A stretch of DNA of 64,000 nucleotides from Saccharopolyspora hordei (lineage in GTDB: Bacteria; Actinomycetota; Actinomycetes; Mycobacteriales; Pseudonocardiaceae): the NCBI RefSeq assembly GCF_013410345.1, contig NZ_JACCFJ010000001.1:3261001-3325000 (forward strand). The letters run 5' to 3'. Shown in pieces: positions 1-16,720 of the stretch. The stretch's first letter is position 1; the number at the start of each line of letters is the position of its first letter. A model generated the notes under the pieces. The model was not told the DNA's origin, made no database searches, and was given only the letters and a program-made list of their open reading frames with translations. The position numbers were made by a program, and so were the translations under genes.

Positions 1-430
1 GGCGATGACCGGCGAGCTGTTCGGCCTGCTCACCGAGCACGGCATCCTGGCGCGCACCGCAGCGGAACCGCGCCGCGACGACGCGGCGTTCGCCCGGGGG
101 CTGCGCGCCGGGCGCTCCCGCGGCCTGGCGACCGAGCTCTTCGGCGCCCGCCCGCTCGCGCTCGACGGACTGCTGGACCCGGCGTCGGTGCCCGACTACG
201 TCTCGGGCGTGCTCATCGCCGACGAGGTCGCCCACCACCTGCCGGCCACCGACCGGGACCGGGTGCTGCTGTGCGGCGCCGAGGACCTGTGCCGACGCTA
301 CGAGCAGGCGCTGGCCGCGCACGGCGTCACCCCGACCGTGCTGACCGAAGACGTCGCGGCGCGCGGGCTGTGGCAGATCGCGCGCTGGACCGGACTCCAC
401 CACGACGCACAGGAGCAGCAATGGCAGTGA
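1..430 (+). CDS. dgoK: 2-dehydro-3-deoxygalactonokinase, C-terminal part
   Basis: This is the C-terminal end of 2-dehydro-3-deoxygalactonokinase, which phosphorylates KDGal in the De Ley-Doudoroff galactonate pathway in the cytoplasm. The gene enters the window already open, in the frame starting at base 2. The first visible residues, MTGELFGLL, followed by a segment rich in Arg, Ala and Gly and by [13 protein letters not shown], resemble the C-terminal half of DgoK proteins. The last bases overlap the aldolase start (ATGGCAGTGA), so the two genes are translationally coupled. The order kinase, aldolase, dehydratase, transporter supports the call more strongly than the fragment alone. The N-terminal half lies outside the window. 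Confidence 0.8.
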
Positions 431-1035
431 ACGGCAGCGGTCTGATCGCGATCCTGCGCGGGGTCACCCCGGACGAGGTGCTCGCCGTCGGCGAGGCGCT
501 GGTCGAGGCGGGCATCGACGCGATCGAGGTGCCGCTGAACTCGCCGGACCCGTTCGCCTCGGTCGAGCGGCTGGCCGGCTCGCTGGGCGAGCGCTGCGCG
601 GTGGGCGTCGGCACGGTGGTCGACGTCGCCGACGTGCCGCGGGCCCGCGACGCGGGGGCGCGGATCGCCGTCGCCCCCAACGCCGACCCCGAGGTCATCA
701 CCGCGGCGCTGGAGGCGGGCCTGCGGCCCTACCCCGGGGTGGCGACACCGACCGAGGCGTTCGCCGCGGTGAAGGCCGGGGCCCGGCACCTGAAGTTGTT
801 CCCCGCCGACGCGGTGGGGGTCGCCGGGATGAAGGCGTGGCGGGCGGTCCTGCCCCCCGATGTCGAGATGCTGCCGGTCGGCGGGGTCGACGAGACCAAC
901 CTCGCCGAGTGGGCGGCGGCCGGGGCGGGCGGCGCCGGGCTCGGTTCCTCGCTCTACCGGCCCGGGGACACCCCCGAGCAGGTCGGCGCCCGCGCGGCCG
1001 CGATGCGACGCGCGTGGGACAGCGCCACCGCCTGA
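421..1035 (+). CDS. dgoA: 2-dehydro-3-deoxy-6-phosphogalactonate aldolase
   Basis: This 204-residue KDPG/KDPGal-aldolase family TIM barrel cleaves 2-dehydro-3-deoxy-6-phosphogalactonate to pyruvate and glyceraldehyde 3-phosphate. The Schiff-base lysine is K125 in HLKLFPAD, with R13 (ILRGV) and E36 (IEVPLNSP), the positions expected from E. coli DgoA. The ATG at 421 is chosen because it gives family length and overlaps the kinase stop by ten bases. The same frame stays open upstream to 271, but that part is a shadow of dgoK. It is the second gene of a dgoK-dgoA-dgoD-transporter operon. A plain KDPG aldolase (Eda) is the only real alternative, and the neighbours argue against it. Confidence 0.9.
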
Positions 1036-1073
1036 ACCCCAGAAGGCGTGCTGAGAGAAGGAAAACGCACCAG

Positions 1074-2222
1074 ATGAAGATCACGTCAATGACGACACAC
1101 CAGGTGCCGCCGCGCTGGCTGTTCCTGAAGATCGAGACCGACGAGGGCGTCGTCGGGTGGGGCGAGCCGGTCCTGGAGGGCCGCGCCGACGCGGTCGCCG
1201 CCACCGTCGCCGAGCTCTCCGACTACCTCATCGGCCAGGACCCGACCCGCATCGAGGACATCTGGACGGTGCTCTACCGCGGCGGGTTCTACCGGGGCGG
1301 CGGCATCCACATGAGCGCGCTCGCCGGGATCGACCAGGCGCTGTGGGACATCCGCGGCAAGTCGCTCGGGCTGCCGGTGCACGAGCTGCTCGGCGGCCGG
1401 GTGCGGGACCGGATCAAGGTCTACTCCTGGATCGGCGGCGACCGCCCGGCCGAGACCGCGCGGGCCGCGCGCGAGGTGGTCGACCGCGGCTTCACCGCGG
1501 TCAAGATGAACGGCACCGAGGAGCTGCAGTACCTCGACAGCTGGGCCAAGGTCGACCAGTGCGTGGCCAACGTCGCCGCGGTGCGCGAGGAGGTCGGGCC
1601 CGACATCGGCATCGGCGTCGACTTCCACGGGCGCGTGCACCGGCCGATGGCCAAGGTGCTGCTGCGCGAGCTGGAGCCCTACCGGCTCATGTTCGTCGAG
1701 GAACCGGTGCTCTCCGAGCACCTGGACGGGGTCGCCGACGTGCTGCGGAACTCGCCGATCCCGATCGCGCTGGGCGAGCGGCTGTACTCGCGGTGGGACT
1801 TCAAGTCGGTGCTGGCCTCCGGCGCGGTGGACGTCGTGCAGCCCGACGCCTCGCACTGCGGTGGCATCACCGAGGCCCGCAAGATCGCGCACATGGCCGA
1901 GGCCCACGACGTGGCGCTGGCGCTGCACTGCCCGCTGGGCCCGATCGCGCTCGCGTCCTGCCTGCAGATCGACGCCGGCTGCTACAATGCGGTGATCCAG
2001 GAGCAGAGTCTGGGCATCCACTACAACACCTCCAACGACCTGCTCGACTACCTGGTCGACCCGTCGGTGTTCCGCTACGACGACGGGCAGGTCGCCATCC
2101 CGACCGGCCCGGGCCTGGGCATCGAGATCAACGAGGAGTACGTGGTCGAGCGGGCCGCCGAGGGCCACCGCTGGCGCAACCCGGTGTGGCGCCACGCCGA
2201 CGGCTCCGTGGCGGAGTGGTGA
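1074..2222 (+). CDS. dgoD: D-galactonate dehydratase
   Basis: This enolase-superfamily enzyme of 382 residues dehydrates D-galactonate to 2-dehydro-3-deoxygalactonate. The metal ligands D183, E209 and E235 and the acid/base residues H185 and H285, with D258, are all present at the numbering of the E. coli enzyme, so substrate assignment is strong. The ATG at 1074 has a GAGAAGGAA ribosome site about ten bases upstream; the longer open frame from 837 is antisense-like shadow of dgoA. It follows the aldolase by 38 bases and precedes the transporter by 5, and is probably in one transcript with both. Confidence 0.95.
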
Positions 2223-2227
2223 GCGCG

Positions 2228-3535
2228 ATGACCGAGACCACGACGACCCCGACGGCGCGGGCCGCCACCGCCACCCGCGCCCGGGTGTTCATCGCGGTGC
2301 TGCTGTTCGGCACCGTGGTGATCAACTACCTGGACCGCTCGAACCTGTCGATCGCCATGCCGGCCATCGCCAAGGAGCTGGAGCTGTCCACGGCCCAGCA
2401 GGGCCTGCTGCTGTCGGCCTTCGGCTGGACCTACGCGGCGATGCAGCTGCCCGGCGGCTGGCTGGTGGACCGGGTCCGGCCACGCCTGCTCTACCCGCTG
2501 TGCCTGGTGCTGTGGTCGCTGGCCACGTTGTTCATGGGCGTGGTCGGCGGGTTCGTCGCGCTCATCGTGCTGCGGCTGCTGGTCGGCGGCTTCGAGGCGC
2601 CCGCGTACCCGATCAACAGCCGGGTCGCCACGGTGTGGTTCCCGGAGCGGGAGCGCGCCACCGCCATCGGCTTCTACACCTCCGGCCAGTTCATCGGCCT
2701 GGCGCTGCTGACCCCGGTGCTGTCCTGGTTGCAGGCGGAGGTGTCGTGGCACTGGGTCTTCATCCTGACCGGCCTGGTCGGCATCGCGTGGGGCGCGTTC
2801 TGGTACGCCAGCTACCGGGAACCGCGCGAGTCGCGGGCCAACGCCGCGGAGGTGGAGCTGATCCGCTCCGGCGGCGGCCTGGTGGACCTGGTCGACGAGC
2901 AGCCGCGGCGGGCCCGGATCACCCGCGGCGACCTCGCCACGGTGCTCGGCAGGCGGAAGCTGTGGGGCATCTACCTCGGCCAGTTCTGCCTGACCTCGAC
3001 GCTGTGGTTCTTCCTCACCTGGTTCCCGACCTACCTGGTGGACTACCGCGGGATGGACTACATCGAGACCGGGTTCCTGGCCTCGCTGCCGTTCGTGGCC
3101 GCGCTGGTGGGCGTGCTCGCCTCGGGCGTGCTCTCGGACGTCCTGCTGCGGCGCGGCGCCTCGCTGGGCCTGGCGCGCAAGGCGCCGATCATCGTCGGGC
3201 TGCTGCTGAGCACGCTGATGGTGGGCGCGAACTACACCGACTCGACGGCGCTGGTGATCGTGTTCCTGTCGGTGGCGTTCTTCGGCAACGGGCTCGCCTC
3301 GATCACCTGGTCGCTGGTCTCGGCGCTGGCGCCGGAGCGCCTGCTCGGGCTCACCGGCGGGATGTTCAACTTCATCGGCAACCTGTCGTCGATCGCGACG
3401 CCGATCGTGATCGGCTTCCTGGTCACCGAGGACAGCTTCACCCCGGCCTTCGGCTACATGACCGCGGTGACCGTCGCGGGCATCCTGTCCTACGTCCTGC
3501 TCGTCGGCCGGGTCGAGCGCGTTTCCGAGCGCTGA
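2228..3535 (+). CDS. MFS transporter, D-galactonate-type (ACS family)
   Basis: A 435-residue major facilitator protein with about 12 membrane segments. The N-terminal VINYLDRSNLSIAMP sequence is characteristic of the anion:cation symporter family that contains the galactonate carrier DgoT and glucarate/phthalate carriers. Its place at the end of the dgo operon makes D-galactonate or a related aldonate the likely substrate, imported with protons across the cytoplasmic membrane. ATG 2228 is preferred because GGAG lies 11 bases upstream; a GTG at 2219 overlaps the dgoD stop as GTGA but sits too close to that site. A strong hairpin directly after the stop ends the operon. Confidence 0.88.
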   Translation: MTETTTTPTARAATATRARVFIAVLLFGTVVINYLDRSNLSIAMPAIAKELELSTAQQGLLLSAFGWTYAAMQLPGGWLVDRVRPRLLYPLCLVLWSLATLFMGVVGGFVALIVLRLLVGGFEAPAYPINSRVATVWFPERERATAIGFYTSGQFIGLALLTPVLSWLQAEVSWHWVFILTGLVGIAWGAFWYASYREPRESRANAAEVELIRSGGGLVDLVDEQPRRARITRGDLATVLGRRKLWGIYLGQFCLTSTLWFFLTWFPTYLVDYRGMDYIETGFLASLPFVAALVGVLASGVLSDVLLRRGASLGLARKAPIIVGLLLSTLMVGANYTDSTALVIVFLSVAFFGNGLASITWSLVSALAPERLLGLTGGMFNFIGNLSSIATPIVIGFLVTEDSFTPAFGYMTAVTVAGILSYVLLVGRVERVSER

Positions 3536-3541
3536 CCGGCA

Positions 3542-3573
3542 GTTCCGGGGCCCGCCCGCGCGGGCCCCGGAAC
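3542..3573 (+). terminator. Hairpin terminator after the galactonate operon
   Basis: A perfect 13-bp stem (GTTCCGGGGCCCG and its complement) with a 6-base loop starts seven bases after the transporter stop. No U-tract follows, as is usual for high-GC actinomycete terminators. A closely related hairpin is found after the IclR gene at 8944. Confidence 0.75.
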
Positions 3574-3968
3574 CCGAGGGCCCGCGACAGGACGATCTGC
3601 GCGGCGGAGCTCGCGAGCTCCGCTCCCGGTCGCCGCAGTTCCCGGACAGCGGCCACAGTGGACGAACCCGGGCGAATTCTTCGCGGTATCAAGGAAAGAC
3701 CCGCTGCGCGAGCTGGCGCGGCGAGGCGTTCATGTGCTCCCTCCTGTTGACGCCCTGAGGCTGTCCGGAAGGGTCAACGTTCCTTCTGGGGCTGATCGGC
3801 GCCCAGAAGTCCTTTTGTTCAAGCGGTCTGCGCCGCTTCACGGCTACCCGCCGTCATCCAACCCGTGCAGCTGCCGGCTGATCGCGCTGCCGGGTCAGGT
3901 CTGCGCGACATCCCCGCCGGATCGAACCGCCTTCCTCCTGTCGAGCGCCTCCCGCCGGAAATGATCTG
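3574..3968. other. Gene-free stretch between two operons
   Basis: About 400 bases without a convincing coding frame. Short open frames here (for example 3734-3964) have no ribosome site and no recognisable product. One copy of the dispersed 9-mer CCACAGTGG lies at 3653-3661. I see nothing else. Confidence 0.5.
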
Positions 3969-3998
3969 TTGACCATCCTCTCACCTTGTGGCAATACT
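3969..3998 (+). promoter_or_regulatory. Promoter for the dehydrogenase-RraA operon
   Basis: TTGACC at 3969-3974 and AATACT at 3993-3998 are separated by 18 bases, a good sigma-70-type promoter for a genome this GC-rich. The AT-rich stretch around it also holds an imperfect inverted repeat (TGGCAATACT at 3990-3998 region against AGTAGTTACCA at 4013-4023), a candidate operator, perhaps for the IclR protein at the end of the operon. The ATG at 4044 follows an AAAGGA ribosome site. Confidence 0.6.
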
Positions 3999-4043
3999 AT
4001 CCGCACATTGAGAGTAGTTACCACGGTATGAAAAGGATGCTGC

Positions 4044-5390
4044 ATGCGCGCGTCAGTGCTGGGGCTCGGCGAGGCCGGGAGTTTGTACGCGATGGGCCTG
4101 GTCAAGCAGGGGTGGGCCGTCTCGGGCTACGATCCGGCCGACCACGCCACGCCGCCCGGGGTGGTCAGGGCGAGCACCCCGGAGGAAGCGGTCGACGGCG
4201 CCGAGGTGGTGCTGAGCCTGGTGGGCGGATCGGCAGCGCTCCCGGCGGCGGAGTCGGTCGCGGCGTTCCTCCGGCCGGACGCGGTCTACGCGGACATGAA
4301 CGCGGGCGACCCCGCGGTGAAGAGGCAGGTCGCGGCCGAGGTCGGGGAGGGCCGGTTCGCCGACGTCGCGGTGATCGGTTCGGTGCCGACCCGCGGCGCG
4401 GCCACGAACGTGGTCATCAGCGGAGCGGGTTCGCGGGCGGCCGCCCGCGCGTTCGCCGCTCTCGGCGCCGAGGTCGAGGACATCGGAGGCGGGCCCGGCG
4501 AGGCCACTGCGCGCAAGCTGCTGCGCAGCACGTTCATGAAAGGTCTTGGCGCGTTGATCGTGGAATCCGTGGCCGCGGGCCGCGCGGCCGGGGCGGAGGA
4601 ATGGGTGCGCGAGCAGATCGCCGCCGAGCTCAGCGGCGGAGCTGGTGCGCTCGACCGGCTGCACGGAGGCACGTGCAAGCACGCCGCGCGGCGCACCGTC
4701 GAAGCCGATGCCGCGGCGTCGCTGCTCGACTCGCTCGGCGTGCGGCCGGTCCTCACGCGCGCCACCGCTGAGCTGCACCGGGGGCTGGCCGATGCGGCGC
4801 TCGCCCCGGTCGAGGACGTCCTGGCCGAGTACGCCGGGCTCGCGGTGGCCAACATCGGCGACGCGCGGGACCGGATGGGCGTGCTGGACGGTGCGATCCG
4901 CTCGCTGTGGAAGGGCGCGCGGCTGGTCGGGCGGGCTCGCACGGTCTGGGTGCGCAGCGGCGACAACTTGGCCGTGCACCGGGCAGTTGCGGCCGCCGAG
5001 CCCGGCGATGTGCTGGTCGTCAACGGGCAGGGCGACACGAGCCGGGCGCTGATCGGCGAGCTGATCGCCGAGCGCGCCAAGGCCCGCGGGGTGGTCGGCA
5101 TGATCATCGACGGCGCGGCGCGCGACGTCGTCGAGCTGGAGCGCATCGGCTTCGGCGTGTGGGCGCGCGGTGTCTCCGCGGCCGGGCCGTACAAGCACGG
5201 TCCGGGGCAGATCGACGTGCCCGTCGCGGTCGGGGGTGTGGTGGCCCGCCCCGGTGACGTGGTCGTGGCCGACGACGACGGGGTCGTCGTCGTCCCGGCC
5301 GCCGAAGCCGTGGCGGGTCTGCTCGGGGGCCGCGCGGTGGAGGCCGACGAGGCGCAGCGCCGCGCCGCGATCCTCGCCGGGACCGCGTGA
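4044..5390 (+). CDS. Fusion of a 3-hydroxyisobutyrate/6PG-dehydrogenase-like protein and an RraA-like domain
   Basis: A 448-residue two-domain protein. Residues 1 to about 250 form a beta-hydroxyacid dehydrogenase: a Rossmann motif GLGEAG at residues 7-12, an acidic YDP end of the second strand, then an all-helical part resembling DUF1932. Residues about 260-448 are an RraA-like domain with the RD motif (GAARDVVELE) that holds the metal-binding aspartate in the HMG/CHA aldolase and oxaloacetate decarboxylase branch. The fusion suggests that a hydroxyacid is oxidised and the oxoacid product is then cleaved or decarboxylated by the same polypeptide; this is inference. The stop overlaps the next start (TGATG). 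ATG 4044 is fixed by AAAGGA six bases upstream. Substrate unknown. Confidence 0.8.
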   Translation: MRASVLGLGEAGSLYAMGLVKQGWAVSGYDPADHATPPGVVRASTPEEAVDGAEVVLSLVGGSAALPAAESVAAFLRPDAVYADMNAGDPAVKRQVAAEVGEGRFADVAVIGSVPTRGAATNVVISGAGSRAAARAFAALGAEVEDIGGGPGEATARKLLRSTFMKGLGALIVESVAAGRAAGAEEWVREQIAAELSGGAGALDRLHGGTCKHAARRTVEADAAASLLDSLGVRPVLTRATAELHRGLADAALAPVEDVLAEYAGLAVANIGDARDRMGVLDGAIRSLWKGARLVGRARTVWVRSGDNLAVHRAVAAAEPGDVLVVNGQGDTSRALIGELIAERAKARGVVGMIIDGAARDVVELERIGFGVWARGVSAAGPYKHGPGQIDVPVAVGGVVARPGDVVVADDDGVVVVPAAEAVAGLLGGRAVEADEAQRRAAILAGTA

Positions 5391-6811
5391 TGACCGGGGT
5401 GTGGGCGCTGGTCGCGTTCGTCGGCGTGATCATCGTCTGGAACGCGGTGTTCAAGCGGAACATCGGCGAGGCGATGATCCTCGGGTTCCTCGCCGTCTGC
5501 GCGTTCGCCCTGATCGGCGGGGTGGAGGACGGCGGCTCCCCGCTGGGGGCCATCGGTGCCGCGGTGCTCGAGGCGATGCAGGAGGAGGTCACCTTCGCCG
5601 GGCTGGCGTTCGTGTCCATGAGCTACCTGCTCACCAGGACGCCGGTGCTGGACAAGCTGATCGACCTGCTGAACTCGGTGCTGGGGCGGCTGCGCGGCGG
5701 GCCGGTCTACACCGCCACCGTCGCGGGCGGCATCTTCGGCGCGATCGCCCACGTCGGTGCCGCGGTGACCGCCGCGGTCGGATCCGTGACCGTGCCGTGG
5801 ATGAAGCGCTCCGGCGTCAAGCCGGAACTCGCCGCCACGGTCGTGGCGGGCGGTGCGGGCATGGGTGTGACCTTCCCGTTCTCCTCGACGATGTTCATCC
5901 TCGTCGGCGGTCTCGCCGCCCAGGGCATCATGCAACCCGACGAGATCGTCAAACCGCTGGCGCTGGCCGGGCTGTGGTGCCTGGGCTACCGCCTGGTGCT
6001 GGTGTTCTTCCTGGTGCGCCGCCACGGCATCGAACCGATCGCGGCCGCGGACCGGATGCCGTTCGGGCGCAGCCTGCGCAGCGGGTGGACGTCGCTGCTG
6101 CTGTTCGTGCCGATCCTGATCCCGCTGCTGCTGACCCGCGGCCCGATCGCCGAGCTGCTGGGCGCCCACTCCGGCGTGGGTGACGAGCTCAAGAAGCCGG
6201 TCGAGCTCGCCGACGGCACCACGCTGCCCGCGCAGCCCTACGAGATGCCGGACGTGATCAGCCTGATCACCTGGATCCCGGTGCTGATGATCGCCCTGGT
6301 GCTGGTCCTGGGCCGCAAACACCTGCCGCGCAGCGCATCCGCGTGGTGGTCCACAGTGGCCAGAGCCGCCCCCTCGTTCGGCGTCATCGGCATCACCATC
6401 GTCGCGGCGTTCTCCGCCTCCAACCTGCTCGCCGACCTCGGCCTGGCCGACCAGCTCAAGGCCGTGCTGTCCGGCCTGCAGGCACCGGCCTGGATCATGG
6501 CCATCGCGATCGGCCTGATCATCGTGGCCATCGCCATCCCGCTCACCGCCAGCGCGACCATGGCAGCGGTGGGCCCGGTGGCGGTCGCCGCGCTGGTCGG
6601 GGCCGGGATCCCGGCACCCATCGCGGCCGCCGCGGTGCTGATCTTCGCCTCCACGGAGGGCGCGTCGCCGCCCTCCGGCGCCCCGATCTACGTCGCGTCC
6701 GGCATCGCCCGCGTCGACCCGGTCAAGACCTTCCTGCCGCTGCTCAGCTACTACTGCCTGCCGATCCTCGGCATGGGTGTGCTGATCGCCATCGGCGCAC
6801 TGCCCGTCTGA
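5390..6811 (+). CDS. TRAP-like large permease (DctM-type)
   Basis: A 473-residue, very hydrophobic protein with about a dozen membrane segments. Repeated Gly/Ala-rich re-entrant stretches (for example GGIFGAIAHVGAAVTAAVG and, near the C-terminus, ASTEGASPPSGAPIY) resemble the large DctM subunit of TRAP carboxylate transporters of the ion-transporter superfamily. It overlaps the fusion gene by one base, so it should import the acid which that enzyme handles. No periplasmic DctP receptor is encoded nearby; the following small membrane protein may act as the partner. A different ion-transporter family, with no receptor, remains possible. GTG 5387 is an alternative start. Confidence 0.68.
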   Translation: MTGVWALVAFVGVIIVWNAVFKRNIGEAMILGFLAVCAFALIGGVEDGGSPLGAIGAAVLEAMQEEVTFAGLAFVSMSYLLTRTPVLDKLIDLLNSVLGRLRGGPVYTATVAGGIFGAIAHVGAAVTAAVGSVTVPWMKRSGVKPELAATVVAGGAGMGVTFPFSSTMFILVGGLAAQGIMQPDEIVKPLALAGLWCLGYRLVLVFFLVRRHGIEPIAAADRMPFGRSLRSGWTSLLLFVPILIPLLLTRGPIAELLGAHSGVGDELKKPVELADGTTLPAQPYEMPDVISLITWIPVLMIALVLVLGRKHLPRSASAWWSTVARAAPSFGVIGITIVAAFSASNLLADLGLADQLKAVLSGLQAPAWIMAIAIGLIIVAIAIPLTASATMAAVGPVAVAALVGAGIPAPIAAAAVLIFASTEGASPPSGAPIYVASGIARVDPVKTFLPLLSYYCLPILGMGVLIAIGALPV

Positions 6812-6832
6812 CCCCGATCCTGTGGAGCCCTC

Positions 6833-7120
6833 ATGAGTTCGACGACGAACGCGCAGGCACCGGCACCACCGGCGTCCCGCCCGACGCGCATCGCGACCGC
6901 CCTGTTCGTGGTCTCCGCGGTGTTCTTCCTGCTCGCCGGTGCGGCCATCGTGATCGGGCAGATCGCGACCCTCGCCGTCGGCGACGCCGCGGCGGCCCGC
7001 CACTGGGCCTCGGCGCTCGGCCCGTACGCGTTCGGCGGTGCGTCCGTGGCCGGCCTGCTCTCCTTCGCCCTGTCCTACCGGAGCGCGGTCGACGGCGGGA
7101 GCGAGGCCGACGATGCCTGA
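6833..7120 (+). CDS. Small two-helix membrane protein
   Basis: A 95-residue protein with a Pro/Ala-rich N-terminal tail and two hydrophobic helices (about residues 20-46 and 60-80), ending in an acidic tail. GGAG stands six bases before the ATG. I do not recognise a family. It sits 21 bases after the TRAP-like permease and overlaps the cyclase gene by eight bases, so it is part of the operon. A small DctQ-like partner of the permease is a reasonable guess from position and topology, but it is shorter (two helices rather than four) than known DctQ subunits. Confidence 0.65.
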   Translation: MSSTTNAQAPAPPASRPTRIATALFVVSAVFFLLAGAAIVIGQIATLAVGDAAAARHWASALGPYAFGGASVAGLLSFALSYRSAVDGGSEADDA

Positions 7121-8093
7121 GGTGAATCCGGGTGCGCCCGCGTACGCGCAGCTGCGCGGGAACACCCCGCCCGGGTCCAGCTGGGGCGTCTTCCGCGACG
7201 ACCCCGAGCGCGGGATGGCCAACTTCGCCGGTCCCGCGCAGGTGCTGGACGCGGTCGCCGCGGTCGATCGCGGGGCGGTGTTCTCCCTCGACCACGCCCT
7301 CGACGCGTTCGACCCGCCCATGGCCCGGGCCCGCAAGGCCCCGCACCACGAGCTGCTGTCCAGCCACCCGGAAGCCCGCGACGACGTGCTCCGCGAGTTC
7401 TACCCGCAGGCCAGCTCGCAGGTGGACGGCCTGCGCCACCGGCGGGCGTCGGGCCACGGCTTCTACGGCGGCGTGGCCGACGAGGACATCCGGCCCGGCA
7501 GCCCGGCGCTGGGCGTGCAGCGCTGGGCGGAGAAGCCGATCGTCGGGCGCGGCGTGGTCATCGACGTCGAGGGCCTGCTCGCCGCTGAAGGTCGGCCCCT
7601 CGACCACCGGGCCGGGCCCGCTCTGGACGTCGAGCTGCTGGATCGAGCGCTGCACGCCCAGGGCGAGCGGGTGCGGCCGGGCGATCTCGTCCTGGTGCAC
7701 ACCGGATGGGCGCGCTGGTTCCTCGATGCCGACCGCGACGTGCGCGGCGAAGTGCGCGCTGCCCGGCGGGCGACCGGGTTCCGGCAGAGCGCGGACCTGC
7801 CCGCCTGGCTGTGGGACCACCAAGTCGCCCTGTTCGCCACCGACACCTTCGCGGTGGAGGTCCTGCCGGTCGTCCCGGACAGCCCGTACCGGGACTCCGC
7901 TCCCGAGGACGCCGGGATGATGCACCAGGAGCTCATCGCCAAGCTCGGTGCGCCGCTCGGGGAGCTCTGGAACCTCACCGACCTGGTCGCCGACAGCCGC
8001 CGCACCGGCCGGTGGGACGCGTTGCTGGTGGTGAAGCCGCTGCACCTCGTCGGCGGCGTCGGCTCGCCGCCCAACGCGACCGCCCTGCGGTGA
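7113..8093 (+). CDS. Cyclase-family metal hydrolase
   Basis: A 326-residue member of the cyclase (kynurenine formamidase-like) hydrolase family. In place of the usual HxGTHxD metal motif it has SSQVDGLRH around residues 105-115, as in the subfamily that uses an STQxDxLxH pattern, so the aspartate and the last histidine are retained. Such enzymes open lactones, amides or cyclic products. It is the last structural gene of the operon and overlaps the small membrane protein, so it may hydrolyse the imported substrate or a lactone of it. The substrate cannot be told from sequence. Confidence 0.75.
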   Translation: MPEVNPGAPAYAQLRGNTPPGSSWGVFRDDPERGMANFAGPAQVLDAVAAVDRGAVFSLDHALDAFDPPMARARKAPHHELLSSHPEARDDVLREFYPQASSQVDGLRHRRASGHGFYGGVADEDIRPGSPALGVQRWAEKPIVGRGVVIDVEGLLAAEGRPLDHRAGPALDVELLDRALHAQGERVRPGDLVLVHTGWARWFLDADRDVRGEVRAARRATGFRQSADLPAWLWDHQVALFATDTFAVEVLPVVPDSPYRDSAPEDAGMMHQELIAKLGAPLGELWNLTDLVADSRRTGRWDALLVVKPLHLVGGVGSPPNATALR

Positions 8094-8112
8094 TCCGGCG
8101 TTCGCGGGCATG

Positions 8113-8129
8113 TTCACCACTGTGTGGAA
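8113..8129 (+). promoter_or_regulatory. Candidate IclR operator
   Basis: An imperfect palindrome with TTC and GAA ends around ACCACTGTGTG, matching its own complement at 12 of 16 positions. It lies 44 bases before the chosen IclR start, where an autoregulatory site would be expected. Confidence 0.35.
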
Positions 8130-8172
8130 AGATGGGGAGGAGGTTCCGACCGAGGGGAGCGCCCACCCGCCC

Positions 8173-8934
8173 ATGGAAACGGCGAAATCACCGGCGACCA
8201 GCATGCGATCGCTCGAGCGGGCCATCGACGTCCTGGAGGTGCTCGACACCAGTCGGCACGCCTTGCGGCTCAGCGACATCGCCCGCCGCGCCGACCTGCC
8301 CGTCGCGACCACCCAGCGCATCCTCAACGTGCTCGAAGCGCGCGGCCGGGTCGAGCGGGACGCCACCGGTTACCGCCCCGGGGTCGGGTTGATCTTCGGG
8401 GCGCACGCCTACCTCACCAGCAGCCCGCTGATCACGGCCGCCCGGCCGGTCCTGCAGGACCTCGCCGCGGAGACCGGCCTGACCGCCTCGCTGTTCAAGC
8501 GCATCGGCTGGTCCCGCGTCGTCCTCGCCCGCGTCGACGGGGCGCGCCCGCTGCGCTACGAACTCCCCATCGGAGAACGGCTCCCCCTGCACCTCGGCGC
8601 GGGCAAGGCCCTCGTGGCCAACATGGACCCGGACGAGCTCGACCAGTTCCTCGCCCAGCTCGGCGACCGCACCCGAGCCGACGGGACCGCGATCGAGCAG
8701 GACGAGTTCCTCGACGACCTCAAGCAGATCCGCGACCGCGGCTACTCGCACGCCCGCAACGAACGCGAACCCGGGATGGCCTCCGTCGCGGCACCGGTCG
8801 CCGAACCCGACGGCAGCACGACCGCCGCGGTCCAGGTCTCCGGCCCGCAGGACGCCATCCCGTCGGATCGCCTCCCCGGCCTCGGCATCGAGGTGCAGCG
8901 CGCCGCCTACGCCATCGCACGCCGCGCCTTCTGA
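8173..8934 (+). CDS. IclR-family transcriptional regulator
   Basis: A 253-residue regulator with an N-terminal winged helix-turn-helix (SLERAIDVLEVL to LEARGRVERD, residues about 12-70) and a C-terminal effector-binding domain with GAGKALVA and GYSHARNERE stretches typical of IclR. It follows the cyclase by 79 bases and probably controls the operon from 4044. ATG 8173 is preferred because the protein then starts shortly before the conserved SLERAI segment; an ATG at 8110 is open but has no ribosome site and would place a palindrome inside the coding region. A hairpin shared with the convergent reductase gene follows. Confidence 0.88.
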   Translation: METAKSPATSMRSLERAIDVLEVLDTSRHALRLSDIARRADLPVATTQRILNVLEARGRVERDATGYRPGVGLIFGAHAYLTSSPLITAARPVLQDLAAETGLTASLFKRIGWSRVVLARVDGARPLRYELPIGERLPLHLGAGKALVANMDPDELDQFLAQLGDRTRADGTAIEQDEFLDDLKQIRDRGYSHARNEREPGMASVAAPVAEPDGSTTAAVQVSGPQDAIPSDRLPGLGIEVQRAAYAIARRAF

Positions 8935-8943
8935 CCGGCCGTT

Positions 8944-8971
8944 CCGGGGCCCCGCCCGCGCAGGGCCCCGG
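8944..8971. terminator. Bidirectional hairpin between IclR and aldo/keto reductase
   Basis: A 9-bp stem CCGGGGCCC/GGGCCCCGG with a 10-base loop between two convergent stops. It is very like the hairpin at 3542. Confidence 0.7.
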
Positions 8972-8976
8972 GGCGA

Positions 8977-9948
8977 TCACGCGAAGCCCGCCGTGTTGTG
9001 CGGGGCGTAGGCCTCCTCCAGGTGCTTGGCCTCGTCGTCGTCGAGGGTCACGTCGACGGCGGCGATCGCGTCCTGCAGGTGCGCCAGCTTGGTCGCGCCC
9101 ACGATCGGCGCGGAGACCACCGGGTTGCGCAGGACCCACGCCAGCGCGATCTGCGCGGCGGAGATCCCGCGCCGGCCCGCCAGCTCCTGCACCCGCTCCA
9201 CGATCGTCCGGTCGCTGTCCAGGTAGAGGGTCTTGCCGAACTCGTCGGTCTCGGACCGCGCCGTCGAGGCGTCCCACGGGCGGGTCAGCCGCCCCCGGGC
9301 CAGCGGGCTCCACGGGATGGAACCCACGCCCTGGTCCGCGCAGAACGGCAGCATCTCCCGTTCTTCCTCGCGGTAGAGCAGGTTGTAGTGGTTCTGCATG
9401 GTGACGAACCGCGTCCAGCCGTTGCGCTCGGCGGTGAACTGGGCCTTGGCGAACTGCCAGGTGTGCATCGAGGAGGCCCCGATGTAGCGGGCCTTGCCCG
9501 CCTTCACCACGTCGTGCAGCGCCTCCATGGTCTCCTCGATGCGCGTCTCGTGGTCCCACCGGTGGATCTGGTAGAGGTCGACGTGGTCGGTGCCGAGCCG
9601 GCGCAGGCTGTTGTCGATCTCGGCCATGATCGCCCGGCGCGACAGCCCGGCGCCGTTCGGCCCGGGGCGCATCCGGCTGCGCACCTTGGTGGCGATCACG
9701 ACGTCCTCGCGCGAGGCGAAGTCCTTCAGCGCCCGGCCGACGATCTCCTCGCTGGAGCCGTTCGAGTAGACGTTGGCGGTGTCGAAGAAGTTGATCCCGG
9801 CCTCGAGCGCGGCGCGGATGATCTCGCGGCTGGGCTCCTCCGGGAGGGTCCAGGTGTGGGTGCCGCGGTCCGGCTCCCCGAAGCTCATGCAGCCCACGCA
9901 GATCGACGAGACCTCCAGGCCGGTCGTTCCGAGTCGGGTGTAGCGCAT
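8977..9948 (-). CDS. Aldo/keto reductase
   Basis: A 323-residue NADPH-dependent (alpha/beta)8 oxidoreductase. The catalytic tetrad is complete: D56, Y61, K88 and H129. The SMHTWQFAKAQ and QNHYNLLYREEE stretches place it with the larger YajO/Tas-type AKRs that reduce aldehydes or sugars. The start ATG 9948 is preceded on its strand by AGGAGGA. It is a single gene between a convergent IclR and a divergent membrane protein, so its substrate is not indicated by context. Confidence 0.9.
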   Translation of the reverse strand: MRYTRLGTTGLEVSSICVGCMSFGEPDRGTHTWTLPEEPSREIIRAALEAGINFFDTANVYSNGSSEEIVGRALKDFASREDVVIATKVRSRMRPGPNGAGLSRRAIMAEIDNSLRRLGTDHVDLYQIHRWDHETRIEETMEALHDVVKAGKARYIGASSMHTWQFAKAQFTAERNGWTRFVTMQNHYNLLYREEEREMLPFCADQGVGSIPWSPLARGRLTRPWDASTARSETDEFGKTLYLDSDRTIVERVQELAGRRGISAAQIALAWVLRNPVVSAPIVGATKLAHLQDAIAAVDVTLDDDEAKHLEEAYAPHNTAGFA

Positions 9949-10360
9949 GGTCGTCCTCCTGCTGTCGAGAAGTTCTGCTCCAGTACCTACCGCTGCGCGG
10001 GCCCCCGTTCAACTCGCTTCCGGCCCCTGCGGGGGAGGGGTTGACTTCGGCCGCGAGCCCTGCACCGTTTCCGGTGCGCACGAGGTCGGTGCACTCGTTG
10101 GGCATACCGCGCGATTCGGGCGGCTCGGCGCGCAGGTGCGTCCGAAATGGACCGATCGGGCGGAAGGCGTCGAACGACGTCGTGTTCATCCGATGTGGAC
10201 CAACCGCGGACGTCGGGGCGGAATCGTCGACCTATGAGTAATGCCACTCTCCGCCGGGCGTTCGTGGACGTGCGTTGCCGGCGCAGGCAGGGTGGCGGAC
10301 GGGAAGAGCACCACGTTCGATGCGCTGGCGCCGGTGAAGGCGTCGCGGGAGGTACGCAGC
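9949..10360. other. Divergent intergenic region
   Basis: About 410 bases between the divergent reductase and membrane-anchored protein genes. Frames at 10041-10241 and the upstream extension of the next gene (10241-10360) are open but lack ribosome sites and recognisable content. I find no convincing promoter or operator here. Confidence 0.5.
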
Positions 10361-11023
10361 ATGGCCGAACCGGGTCGGGACGAGTCGGCGGGCGAAGACC
10401 CGGTGCGCGGGGAGAACCCCGAGCAGGAGGGCGCGGCGCAGGCCGAAGACCAGGTCGAGGCGGGCCAGGCCGAATCGACTGAGGCGGGCCAGGCCGAATC
10501 GACTGAGGCGGGCCAGGCCGAATCGACTGAGGCGGGCCAGGCCGAATCGACCGAGGCGGCCCAGCCCGGGACGGCCGAGGAGGCGCCAGCCGCCCCGAGC
10601 CGCGGCGGCAAGAAGGGACTGCTCGTCGGGCTCGGCAGCGGTCTGGTCGTGGGGGCCGTCGCCGGGCTGGCGGTCGCCGGGCTCGCCAAGCCGGACTTCC
10701 TCGTCGGACCGGGCGCACCGGACGACACGGCGTCCGCGGTCACCGCGGCACTGGCCAGCAAGAACGCCAGCGGCCTGGCGGAGAACTCGTGCCGCAGCAC
10801 CGACGGCAAGCTGGCCCCGCAACTCCCGCCGCAGGCGTTGCAGCTGATCCAGTCCGCCGAGCAGTCGGGCCCGCCGCGCCGCTCGCTGGACAGCGAGGCG
10901 CTGACCCCCGTGGACCTCACGCTCACCGCGCAGGGCCAGACCCAGACCGTCCCGATCGACGTCGTCCTCGGCGTGACCGACGGCGAGTGGTGCATGAAGG
11001 GCATCGCCGACCGCCAGCAGTAG
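10361..11023 (+). CDS. Membrane-anchored extracytoplasmic protein with AGQAESTE repeats
   Basis: A 220-residue protein of unknown function. Residues 1-85 are an acidic, disordered cytoplasmic segment holding four copies of AGQAESTE. A single membrane helix (GLLVGLGSGLVVGAVAGLAV) follows a GGKK basic stop, so the C-terminal 110 residues should lie outside the membrane. That domain has two cysteines (SCRSTD and EWCMKG) that could form a disulfide and resembles small DUF4878-like extracytoplasmic domains. ATG 10361 is chosen because GGGAGG lies eight bases upstream; the frame is open back to 10241. It is followed after 40 bases by a LysR gene. Confidence 0.75.
   Translation: MAEPGRDESAGEDPVRGENPEQEGAAQAEDQVEAGQAESTEAGQAESTEAGQAESTEAGQAESTEAAQPGTAEEAPAAPSRGGKKGLLVGLGSGLVVGAVAGLAVAGLAKPDFLVGPGAPDDTASAVTAALASKNASGLAENSCRSTDGKLAPQLPPQALQLIQSAEQSGPPRRSLDSEALTPVDLTLTAQGQTQTVPIDVVLGVTDGEWCMKGIADRQQ
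10457..10552 (+). repeat. Four tandem 24-nt repeats inside a coding region
   Basis: Four head-to-tail copies of a 24-base unit that encodes EAGQAEST. The first three copies are identical and the fourth differs only at its last base, so the array is young or under homogenisation. It expands the acidic cytoplasmic tail of the membrane-anchored protein in frame. Confidence 0.95.
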
Positions 11024-15181: not shown

Positions 15182-15210
15182 TTGATGTCAGATACGTCAT
15201 CATATACGAT
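15182..15210 (+). promoter_or_regulatory. Leaderless promoter with overlapping GntR-type operator
   Basis: TTGATG (15182-15187) and TACGAT (15205-15210) are 17 bases apart and the ATG of the FAH-RraA gene begins seven bases after the -10 box, so transcription should start at or next to the start codon. The palindrome ATCATATACGAT (15199-15210) covers the -10 box and matches ATCGTATACGAT at 11 of 12 positions. Near copies occur at 23536, 25070 and 25206. Confidence 0.65.
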
Positions 15211-15217
15211 CCTCGGC

Positions 15218-16720
15218 ATGACGCACGACGATGTCCGTTCTGCCAGCGATGGACTCGCCCGGCACCCGCTGGTCGGGCGGCCCGGCAAGGTGATCGCGCT
15301 GCACCTGAACTACCCGTCGCGGATCGCCCAGCGCGGCCGGGCGCCGGCCAAGCCGTCGTACTTCCTCAAGCCGGTGACCTCGCTGGCCGCCTCCGACCAG
15401 ACCGTGCAGCGCCCGCCGGGGGCGGAGCTGCTGGCCTTCGAGGGCGAGATCGCGCTCGTGATCGGCACGACCGCCCGCCGGGTTCGGCCCGAGGAGGGGT
15501 GGAAGCACGTCTCCGCGGTGACCGCCGCCAACGACCTCGGCGTCTACGACCTGCGGACCGCGGACAAGGGCTCGAACCTGCGCTCCAAGGGCGGCGACGG
15601 CTACACGCCGCTGGGGCCCGCCCTGCTGCCCGCCGCCGAGATCGACCCGGCCCGGTTGCGGGTGCGGACCTGGGTCAACGGCGAGCTCGTCCAGGACGAC
15701 TCCGCGGGCACCGTGGTCTTCCCGTTCGGCGAGCTGGTCGCCGACCTGTCGCAGCTGATCACCCTGGAACCGGGCGACGTGGTGCTCACCGGTACCCCCG
15801 CCGGGTCGTCGGTCGTGGGCCCGGGCGACGTCGTCGAGGTGGAGGTGGACGTCCCGGGCACCGAGCACCGCACCGGCCGGCTCCGCACCACCGTGGTCGA
15901 GGGCCGCACCCCGCTGCCGGACTTCAGCGCCCAACCCGCCGTCGACGACCACCAGCGGGCCGAGGCGTGGGGCAGCCGCGAGGCCGCCGGGCTCCCGGCG
16001 GAGTTCGAGCTCACCGACGACCTGGTGGCCAAGCTCCAGCAGGTCTCGGTGGCCACGCTGTCGTCCCAGCTGCGCAAGCGCGGCTACGACCAGCTCTCCA
16101 TCGACGGCGTGCGCACCAACACCCCCGGCCGCAAGATGGTCGGGCGCGCCCGCACGCTGCGCTTCGTGCCCGCCCGCGAGGACCTGTTCCGCAGCCACGG
16201 CGGCGGCTACAACGCGCAGAAGCGGGCCTTCGACGCGCTCAACCCCGGTGACGTGCTCGTGGTGGAGGCCCGCGGCGAACGCGGCAGCGGCACGGTCGGC
16301 GACATCCTCGCGCTGCGGGCCCAGGTCCGGGGCGCCGCCGGGATCGTCACCGACGGCGGCGTGCGCGACTGGGCCGCCGTCGCCGAGCTGGACATCCCCA
16401 CCTTCTCCGGCGGCCCGCACCCGGCCGTCCTCGGGCGCCGCCACGTGCCGTGGGACAGCGACATCACCATCGCCTGCGGCGGCGCGACCGTGCAGCCCGG
16501 CGACGTGGTCGTCGGCGACGACGACGGGGTCCTGGTCATCCCGCCGCCGCTGCTGGCCGAGGTGCTCGACGCCGCGATCGAGCAGGAGGCCGAGGAGGCG
16601 TGGATCGCCGCCCGGGTCGCCGAGGGCGCCGCGGTCGACGGCCTCTACCCGCTGACCGGCGAGTGGCGGGAGCGCTACGAGGCCGAGCGCCGCACCGACC
16701 GACCGAACACCGACGCCTAG
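15218..16720 (+). CDS. Fumarylacetoacetate hydrolase-family isomerase/decarboxylase fused to an RraA-like domain
   Basis: A 500-residue fusion. Residues about 20-225 are a FAH-family domain close to HpaG/HpcE, with metal ligands E75, E77 and D106 and the LTGTPAGSS loop. In the homoprotocatechuate pathway this family decarboxylates 5-oxopent-3-ene-1,2,5-tricarboxylate and isomerises the product. Residues about 265-460 are RraA-like, with the GGVRD motif of the aldolase/decarboxylase branch. The second domain could perform the later aldol cleavage or an oxaloacetate-type decarboxylation; this is inference. The gene opens a five-gene run with the DapA-like protein, HpaE and HpaD. There is no ribosome site; the message is probably leaderless. 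Confidence 0.82.
   Translation: MTHDDVRSASDGLARHPLVGRPGKVIALHLNYPSRIAQRGRAPAKPSYFLKPVTSLAASDQTVQRPPGAELLAFEGEIALVIGTTARRVRPEEGWKHVSAVTAANDLGVYDLRTADKGSNLRSKGGDGYTPLGPALLPAAEIDPARLRVRTWVNGELVQDDSAGTVVFPFGELVADLSQLITLEPGDVVLTGTPAGSSVVGPGDVVEVEVDVPGTEHRTGRLRTTVVEGRTPLPDFSAQPAVDDHQRAEAWGSREAAGLPAEFELTDDLVAKLQQVSVATLSSQLRKRGYDQLSIDGVRTNTPGRKMVGRARTLRFVPAREDLFRSHGGGYNAQKRAFDALNPGDVLVVEARGERGSGTVGDILALRAQVRGAAGIVTDGGVRDWAAVAELDIPTFSGGPHPAVLGRRHVPWDSDITIACGGATVQPGDVVVGDDDGVLVIPPPLLAEVLDAAIEQEAEEAWIAARVAEGAAVDGLYPLTGEWRERYEAERRTDRPNTDA

Follow-up and report, generated by a model that had tools for sequence, protein, structure and literature searches.

A DUF1932-type dehydrogenase fused to an RraA-like domain recurs beside a DctM-type permease gene in actinobacteria

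A single open frame of Saccharopolyspora hordei joins an N-terminal DUF1932-type dehydrogenase to a C-terminal RraA-like domain. The fusion is genuine and recurrent: at least 32 full-length examples, this one included, occur in three family-level groups (f1, f21 and f98). We propose, with about even confidence, that the protein is a two-step catabolic enzyme of an uptake-linked operon, the dehydrogenase half making a 2-oxo acid for the RraA half to decarboxylate or split. What is new is the combination and the module, built from known parts, although automatic domain databases may already list the architecture. Among open-licence PMC papers, we found none on the DUF1932–RraA fusion; DUF1932 alone gave off-topic titles only and DUF1932 with RraA gave nothing. 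This agrees with an earlier note, made from the DNA sequence alone, which had called the module undescribed. The window (the whole 64,000-nucleotide stretch of DNA analysed here) corresponds to positions 3261001–3325000 of a 5.78-Mb single-contig genome.

The fusion gene and its operon

The earlier note had described a 448-residue chain with a NAD-binding dehydrogenase, DUF1932-like helices and an RraA domain, overlapping a permease gene by one base. Pfam bears out all three domains, each above its cut-off (Table 1), and the stop codon TGA (5388–5390) has one base in common with the permease ATG (5390–5392), as TGATG at 5388–5392. The best named matches, both fusions of 89% identity, come from Saccharopolyspora oryzae and S. 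hirsuta. NCBIfam lists 12 families for the protein, all below their cut-offs. An AlphaFold2 model (ten-row alignment, best of five models used) has a mean pLDDT of 85.9 (66.2–81.9 for the other four), with the lowest confidence at residues 253–255, the junction of the two halves; given a pTM of 0.52 and the ten-row alignment, the relative placement of the domains is unreliable.

Table 1 Features of the window discussed in the text
Feature	Positions in window	Residues	Strand	Evidence
DUF1932–RraA fusion gene	4044–5390	448 aa	+	single open frame
AAAGGA, probable ribosome-binding site for the fusion	4032–4037		+	inferred, read from the sequence
NAD_binding_2 of the fusion	4053–4463	4–140	+	Pfam PF03446, 31.1 bits (cut-off 21)
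DUF1932 of the fusion	4581–4781	180–246	+	Pfam PF09130, 38.3 bits (cut-off 25)
RraA-like domain of the fusion	4848–5291	269–416	+	Pfam, 153.2 bits (cut-off 24.5)
DctM-type permease	5390–6811 (listed from GTG at 5387)		+	Pfam PF06808, 149.6 bits (cut-off 23.8)
Small protein	6833–7120	95 aa	+	no Pfam match; membrane-spanning look, judged from the sequence by eye
'Cyclase', PF04199 family, divergent subclass	7113–8093		+	Pfam, 57.1 bits
IclR-family regulator, 16 bases past the cyclase	8110–8934		+	Pfam; NCBIfam BhcR 172 bits, below cut-off 350
FAA_hydrolase–RraA-like fusion	15182–16720			Pfam; NCBIfam NF009399 (PRK12764) 833.8 bits (cut-off 444)

Because the intergenic gaps are small or negative, the fusion, permease, small-protein, cyclase and IclR genes likely form one operon. 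Neighbours of the 32 fusions were labelled within 5 kb by tblastn matches to reference proteins (the small protein at E up to 1e-3; the Ldh_2 and CoA-transferase III references backed by Pfam). An IclR gene lies near 32/32. So does a DctM gene, as the earlier note's link to a transporter implies; it is on the same strand downstream in 30, divergent in L129 and upstream in L131. A counterpart of the small protein is found near 31 of the 32. Other labels are sparse: an MFS transporter of one type (5/32), an Ldh_2-family gene (4/32, none reaching a curated NCBIfam cut-off), CoA-transferase III (2/32, the one at L146 being part of an adjacent copy of the module that is unfused) and a PobA-like match of 28–32% (2/32). 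As a TRAP DctM subunit, the window permease passes PF06808 but fails TIGR00786 (64.4 versus 268.45), and no DctP binding protein was found beside it among the seven genes scanned with Pfam (2240–9948 of the window).

The earlier note had included the cyclase at 7113 in the module. It is present in the window, but lies near only 11 of the 32 fusions, with none nearby in the other 21, and near three of eight actinobacterial loci with separate halves; it is therefore accessory rather than core, and an obligatory role is ruled out. The metal motif expected in the PF04199 cyclase family is HxGTHxDxPxH; at this position the window cyclase and 13 relatives have Q-x-x-x-Q-x-D-G-L-R-H-R. A relative in the PDB, 5IBZ, is similar there, and its entry is named uncharacterised. 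Judged by this motif, the window cyclase is a distinct PF04199 subclass.

Elsewhere in the window, positions 5–3535, ahead of the module, hold the end of a kinase gene and genes for an aldolase, an MR/MLE-type dehydratase and an MFS transporter, with the look of a galactonate operon as judged by eye; the MFS gene was tested with Pfam, and the MR/MLE gene groups with an annotated counterpart. Positions 10241–11023 encode a protein with a short tandem repeat near its N terminus, rich in A, E, S, T, G and Q.

Distribution and origin of the fusion

Searching for the same fusion and its gene neighbourhoods, the check suggested in the earlier note, yielded 31 further full-length fusions besides the constant permease and regulator genes. 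At least 24 fusions were found in 23 genomes (297 genomes of the family searched) and at least ten, eight of them new, in a class-wide sample of 394 genomes; these counts are lower bounds, with four or five candidates scored per genome at E up to 1e-36. The 31 are 52–89% identical to the window protein and none has an internal stop.

The earlier note had also named what would undo its reading, a frameshift uniting two genes that every relative keeps apart. Relatives with separate neighbouring halves do exist, as a sequencing or assembly error would predict, but the fused frame is unbroken at 31 further loci and the fused rows form one branch in both trees; we rule this artefact out and give it a practically negligible probability. 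In the DUF1932 tree (54 rows, without the DUF1932 gene of L038, which fell below the cut) the 32 fused rows lie on one side of a branch with support 94/83, below the starred level; in the RraA tree (59 rows) they do so with support 95/96. The fused rows thus being one side of a branch in each, both trees fit a single fusion event, which they do not prove.

The dehydrogenase half

Twelve residues of this half, the Rossmann glycines among them (G7, G9, E10, G12, D30, K158, R161, K166, H213, R216, R217 and E220) are identical in 32/32 fusions, and the seven from K158 onwards are identical also in 21/21 separate homologues (the locus with broken genes, L029, is excluded from residue counts). K158 aligns with a lysine of the DUF1932 structures 1I36 and 4EZB, at the catalytic position of the β-hydroxyacid dehydrogenase superfamily. 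The conserved cationic residues would suit polycarboxylates, and the conserved D30, an Asp after the second strand, would favour NAD over NADP by analogy with the fold family. The fusion fails the 3-hydroxyisobutyrate dehydrogenase (HIBADH) family score, TIGR01692 (26.2 versus a cut-off of 291.6).

The RraA half

The best solved match to the model of this half is the HMG/CHA aldolase 3NOJ of Pseudomonas putida F1 (LigK/GalC family; Z 28.9, r.m.s.d. 1.4 over 192 residues, 40% identity). Residues N71, H75, R123, D124, G144, K147 and E199 of 3NOJ are kept in the fusion, H75 being Gln in 3/32. In an ungapped alignment, R123, D124 and E199 correspond to R360, D361 and E436, identical in 58/58 rows; R277, N308, E339, G381 and K384 are identical in 32/32 fusions. 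By contrast, D102 is replaced by Glu, T145 by Pro and R195 by Val in 32/32. D102, D124 and E199 have active-site roles in the aldolase.

The chemistry of the P. putida enzyme is given in passages of PMC5065237 as a metal-dependent retro-aldol reaction and oxaloacetate decarboxylation via a pyruvate enolate. The same passages describe the role of R123 and the cost of R123K; for T145A and R195A they report a kcat/Km for HMG, measured without phosphate, of 8.2e2 and 4.9e3, respectively, down from 8.3e4. Since the catalytic residues are kept and T145 and R195 are replaced, the RraA half is probably an active pyruvate-type aldolase or decarboxylase with a preferred substrate other than HMG or CHA. 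A CHA aldolase proper is ruled out by these two residues, by both CHA-aldolase cut-offs (TIGR02798, 143.5 versus 304.5; PRK09262, 157.5 versus 179) and by the tree, in which L047, whose protein clears the cut-off for LigK at 361.7 bits, sits in a branch (99/96) apart from the fused branch. RraA proteins of Escherichia coli and Streptomyces (RraAS2) are among the fold relatives of the model, which would suit a non-enzymatic regulator of RNase E/ES activity; that reading is very improbable, and we reject it, as the RraA cut-offs fail (PRK09372, 96.7 versus 136; TIGR02998, 51.7 versus 241.25), the closest solved chain is the aldolase and the R360, D361 and E436 triad is invariant.

Separate DUF1932 and RraA genes

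Beyond the fusions, the DUF1932 and RraA halves are separate genes, often adjoining. At the eight actinobacterial loci of this kind, TctABC-type transporter genes occur in six; TctB, TctA, TctC, RraA and DUF1932 are consecutive in six of the eight, with DctM and cyclase genes downstream in three of these six. The TctC-type binding proteins of the relatives match many Bug/TctC chains, one class of which is named for terephthalate, and give no clue to the substrate. In Nocardiopsis prasina (L026), one strand carries genes for CoA-transferase III, a CitE-like lyase, DctM, a small protein, RraA, IclR and DUF1932, the first two below NCBIfam cut-offs. The count of eight leaves out L029 and the second, unfused copy at L146, both arranged like L026; the RraA and DUF1932 genes of L029 (Nocardiopsis eucommiae CP074402) read as pieces shorter than those of L026.

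In a plasmid collection searched by tblastn, 644 records matched, seven with at least 80% of the query covered at one place. An annotated RraA or aldolase gene adjoins a DUF1932-type gene in six of nine plasmid regions examined (Thermus oshimai, Rhizobium sp. Pop5, Shinella, Priestia, R. daejeonense and Pseudomonas syringae). On a Novosphingobium plasmid a LysR gene stands in the gap of about 1.3 kb between the two genes, and in Arthrobacter (L042) and Sinorhizobium (L049), where the region is unannotated, matches to both halves are adjacent. On the Shinella plasmid (L045, 7896–17774), a single DUF1932 gene is surrounded by four RraA-type matches, together with MR/MLE and molybdopterin oxidoreductase genes, in what looks like another uncharacterised acid-degradation cluster.

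In the phylum sample, DUF1932 was found in 23/296 genomes, with RraA within 1.5 kb at four of the 23 loci, the window among them; 14 of the 23 were extended by up to 6 kb in both directions. Ten of the 11 close DUF1932 genes (own profile, E ≤ 1e-71) have RraA within about 6 kb, a partly circular count that is not independent, because the profile was made from paired genes, six of the ten belong to a single family-level group and the window itself is another of them. Beside weaker DUF1932 matches RraA was found at none of six at up to 6 kb and at none of six more at 1.5 kb, which rules out the pairing as a trait of all DUF1932 proteins. Control dehydrogenases with NAD_binding_11 had RraA nearby in 0/30 cases at 1.5 kb and 0/20 at up to 6 kb, some of these cut by contig ends.

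Ring-cleavage-type operons with DUF1932

Six loci of the phylum sample (L183–L187 and L189, one family-level group) carry the run DUF6282, PIG-L, RraA, C23O-like and DUF1932, their DUF1932 proteins being close relatives (43–45% identical). At L184, the PIG-L protein matches the 4-oxalomesaconate hydratase 5CGZ (6.5e-62), the RraA stretch reaches PRK09262 (179.9 versus 179) and misses LigK (173.3 versus 304.5), and the C23O-like protein matches catechol dioxygenase structures and barely misses the catechol 2,3-dioxygenase cut-off (319.7 versus 320.2). The DUF6282 label there stands for 61% identity to a Thermus gene so named, with no NCBIfam match. Similar gene sets were seen at L043 (4724–9390), L028, L190 and L039, the last two without a C23O-like gene in the stretch examined. 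L043, L039 and L037, which come from related settings, stand in the DUF1932 tree as sisters of the actinobacterial rows, both separate and fused.

The steps of the protocatechuate 4,5 route are named in passages of PMC8431788. An operon of the L184 type would cover each of them, with DUF1932 as the dehydrogenase and DUF6282 as the lactone hydrolase; the run of DUF6282, GalB-like, RraA, C23O-like and DUF1932 genes looks like a differently built route of the protocatechuate 4,5 type, in which DUF1932 and DUF6282 replace LigC and LigI. In the excerpts of PMC12673573, which concern a further aromatic route, a hydratase gene has that of an RraA-type HMG aldolase beside it, again with no DUF1932 partner.

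Proposed reaction and alternatives

In our proposal, the DctM-type permease would import a hydroxylated di- or tricarboxylate, and the DUF1932-type dehydrogenase, with NAD+, would oxidise its hydroxyl, as its fold, conserved lysine and Asp after the second strand suggest. The product, an oxaloacetate-type 2-oxo acid or a 4-hydroxy-2-oxo acid, would pass to the RraA domain, whose conserved residues point to a metal-dependent pyruvate-type aldolase or decarboxylase yielding pyruvate or a substituted pyruvate together with CO2 or a second oxo acid. The cyclase, where present, would probably act on the substrate in lactone or ester form, opening it, and IclR would control the operon. The earlier note had inferred the same sequence of hydroxyacid oxidation followed by cleavage or decarboxylation, and the retention of both sets of active-site residues lends that inference support. 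As to the substrate, we would guess at a malate-like 2-hydroxydicarboxylate: a hydroxyl β to the carboxylate lost in an oxaloacetate-type decarboxylation suits both halves, DctM permeases are known chiefly for carrying dicarboxylates, and some members have Ldh_2, CitE-like and CoA-transferase III genes nearby. Oxidation as the direction is a guess, since β-hydroxyacid dehydrogenases often act as reductases.

Several points count against this explanation. The cyclase has no clear job on an open-chain acid and is missing beside most fusions, and the close DUF1932 relatives in ring-cleavage-type operons would suit a dehydrogenase acting from hemiacetal to lactone. The PobA-like matches beside two of the 32 fusions also count against it. 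LigC, the CHMS dehydrogenase, converts a cyclic hemiacetal to a lactone; if the fusion did likewise, the cyclase would open the lactone and the RraA half would cleave a 4-hydroxy-2-oxo acid. The six DUF6282-to-DUF1932 runs, the hydratase match at L184 and the gene kinds of the window, which are likewise a dehydrogenase, a hydrolase and an aldolase, speak for such a route. We nevertheless consider it unlikely: with one reference sequence per kind, no C23O, LigA, LigB, PIG-L or DUF6282 relative could be labelled in the 5-kb surroundings of the 32 fusions, the cyclase is so often missing, the fused RraA rows fall outside the branch with the LigK-passing protein, and L038 and L050 have a LigC-like gene as well as DUF1932, so that DUF1932 is not simply LigC there.

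The two halves could also act in the other order, with RraA cleaving first and the dehydrogenase oxidising or reducing one product. At six of the eight actinobacterial loci with separate halves, RraA comes first and DUF1932 follows with no labelled gene in between, opposite to the order in the fusion, but gene order does not fix reaction order; the known products, pyruvate and oxaloacetate, are not hydroxyacids, and the dehydrogenase would need a reductase role, which makes this order rather unlikely. Aldolase reactions are reversible, and in a synthetic direction the RraA half would add pyruvate to an oxo acid and the dehydrogenase half would reduce the adduct. This we find quite improbable, as permease and IclR genes near every fusion would be typical of catabolism and the conserved D30 would favour NAD.

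The oxidise-then-cleave proposal can be set in a wider frame, which we offer tentatively, at clearly less than even odds. One branch of the DUF1932 proteins would comprise dehydrogenases feeding RraA-type pyruvate aldolases. Its ancestral setting would be an alternative ring-cleavage operon with one gene per step (C23O-like, DUF1932, DUF6282, GalB-like hydratase and CHA-type aldolase); in actinobacteria the pair would have been freed from it and fused once, giving a self-contained 'oxidise and split' enzyme for imported, so far unrecognised plant or soil hydroxy-polycarboxylates. Through the fusion, DUF1932, a domain of unknown function, gains a defined partner enzyme and a predicted reaction order, so that the substrate can be sought by assay of a single purified protein. 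The analysis also exposes a recurrent neighbouring operon type, that of the DUF6282, GalB-like, RraA, C23O-like and DUF1932 genes.

Comparison with known systems

The DUF1932 structures 1I36 (MTH1747), 4EZB and 3QSG are homologous to the N-terminal half (28–31% identity), and 1I36 and 4EZB have the segments K-x-x-R-S-x-x-x-K-G and H-x-x-R-R in common with the fusion; no function is named in the three entries, whose chains of 258–299 residues are too short for an RraA domain. The modelled fold of residues ~1–246 resembles that of 3-hydroxyisobutyrate dehydrogenases (5Y8G–5Y8M; Z about 23), but the C-terminal domain of this half is DUF1932, and NAD_binding_11 of Pfam is unmatched in the fusion. 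Compared with the HMG/CHA aldolase, the RraA domain is here joined to a dehydrogenase.

A parallel in architecture lies in the window itself. The earlier note had reported a second, unrelated RraA fusion 10 kb away; the fusion exists and its partner domain is unrelated, but its RraA half is homologous (35%). It belongs to FAH::RraA (NF009399/PRK12764), a known, curated architecture whose family score the DUF1932–RraA protein fails (78.8 versus 444). There, too, an RraA domain is C-terminal on a catabolic enzyme, the partner being a fumarylacetoacetate-hydrolase domain in place of the dehydrogenase.
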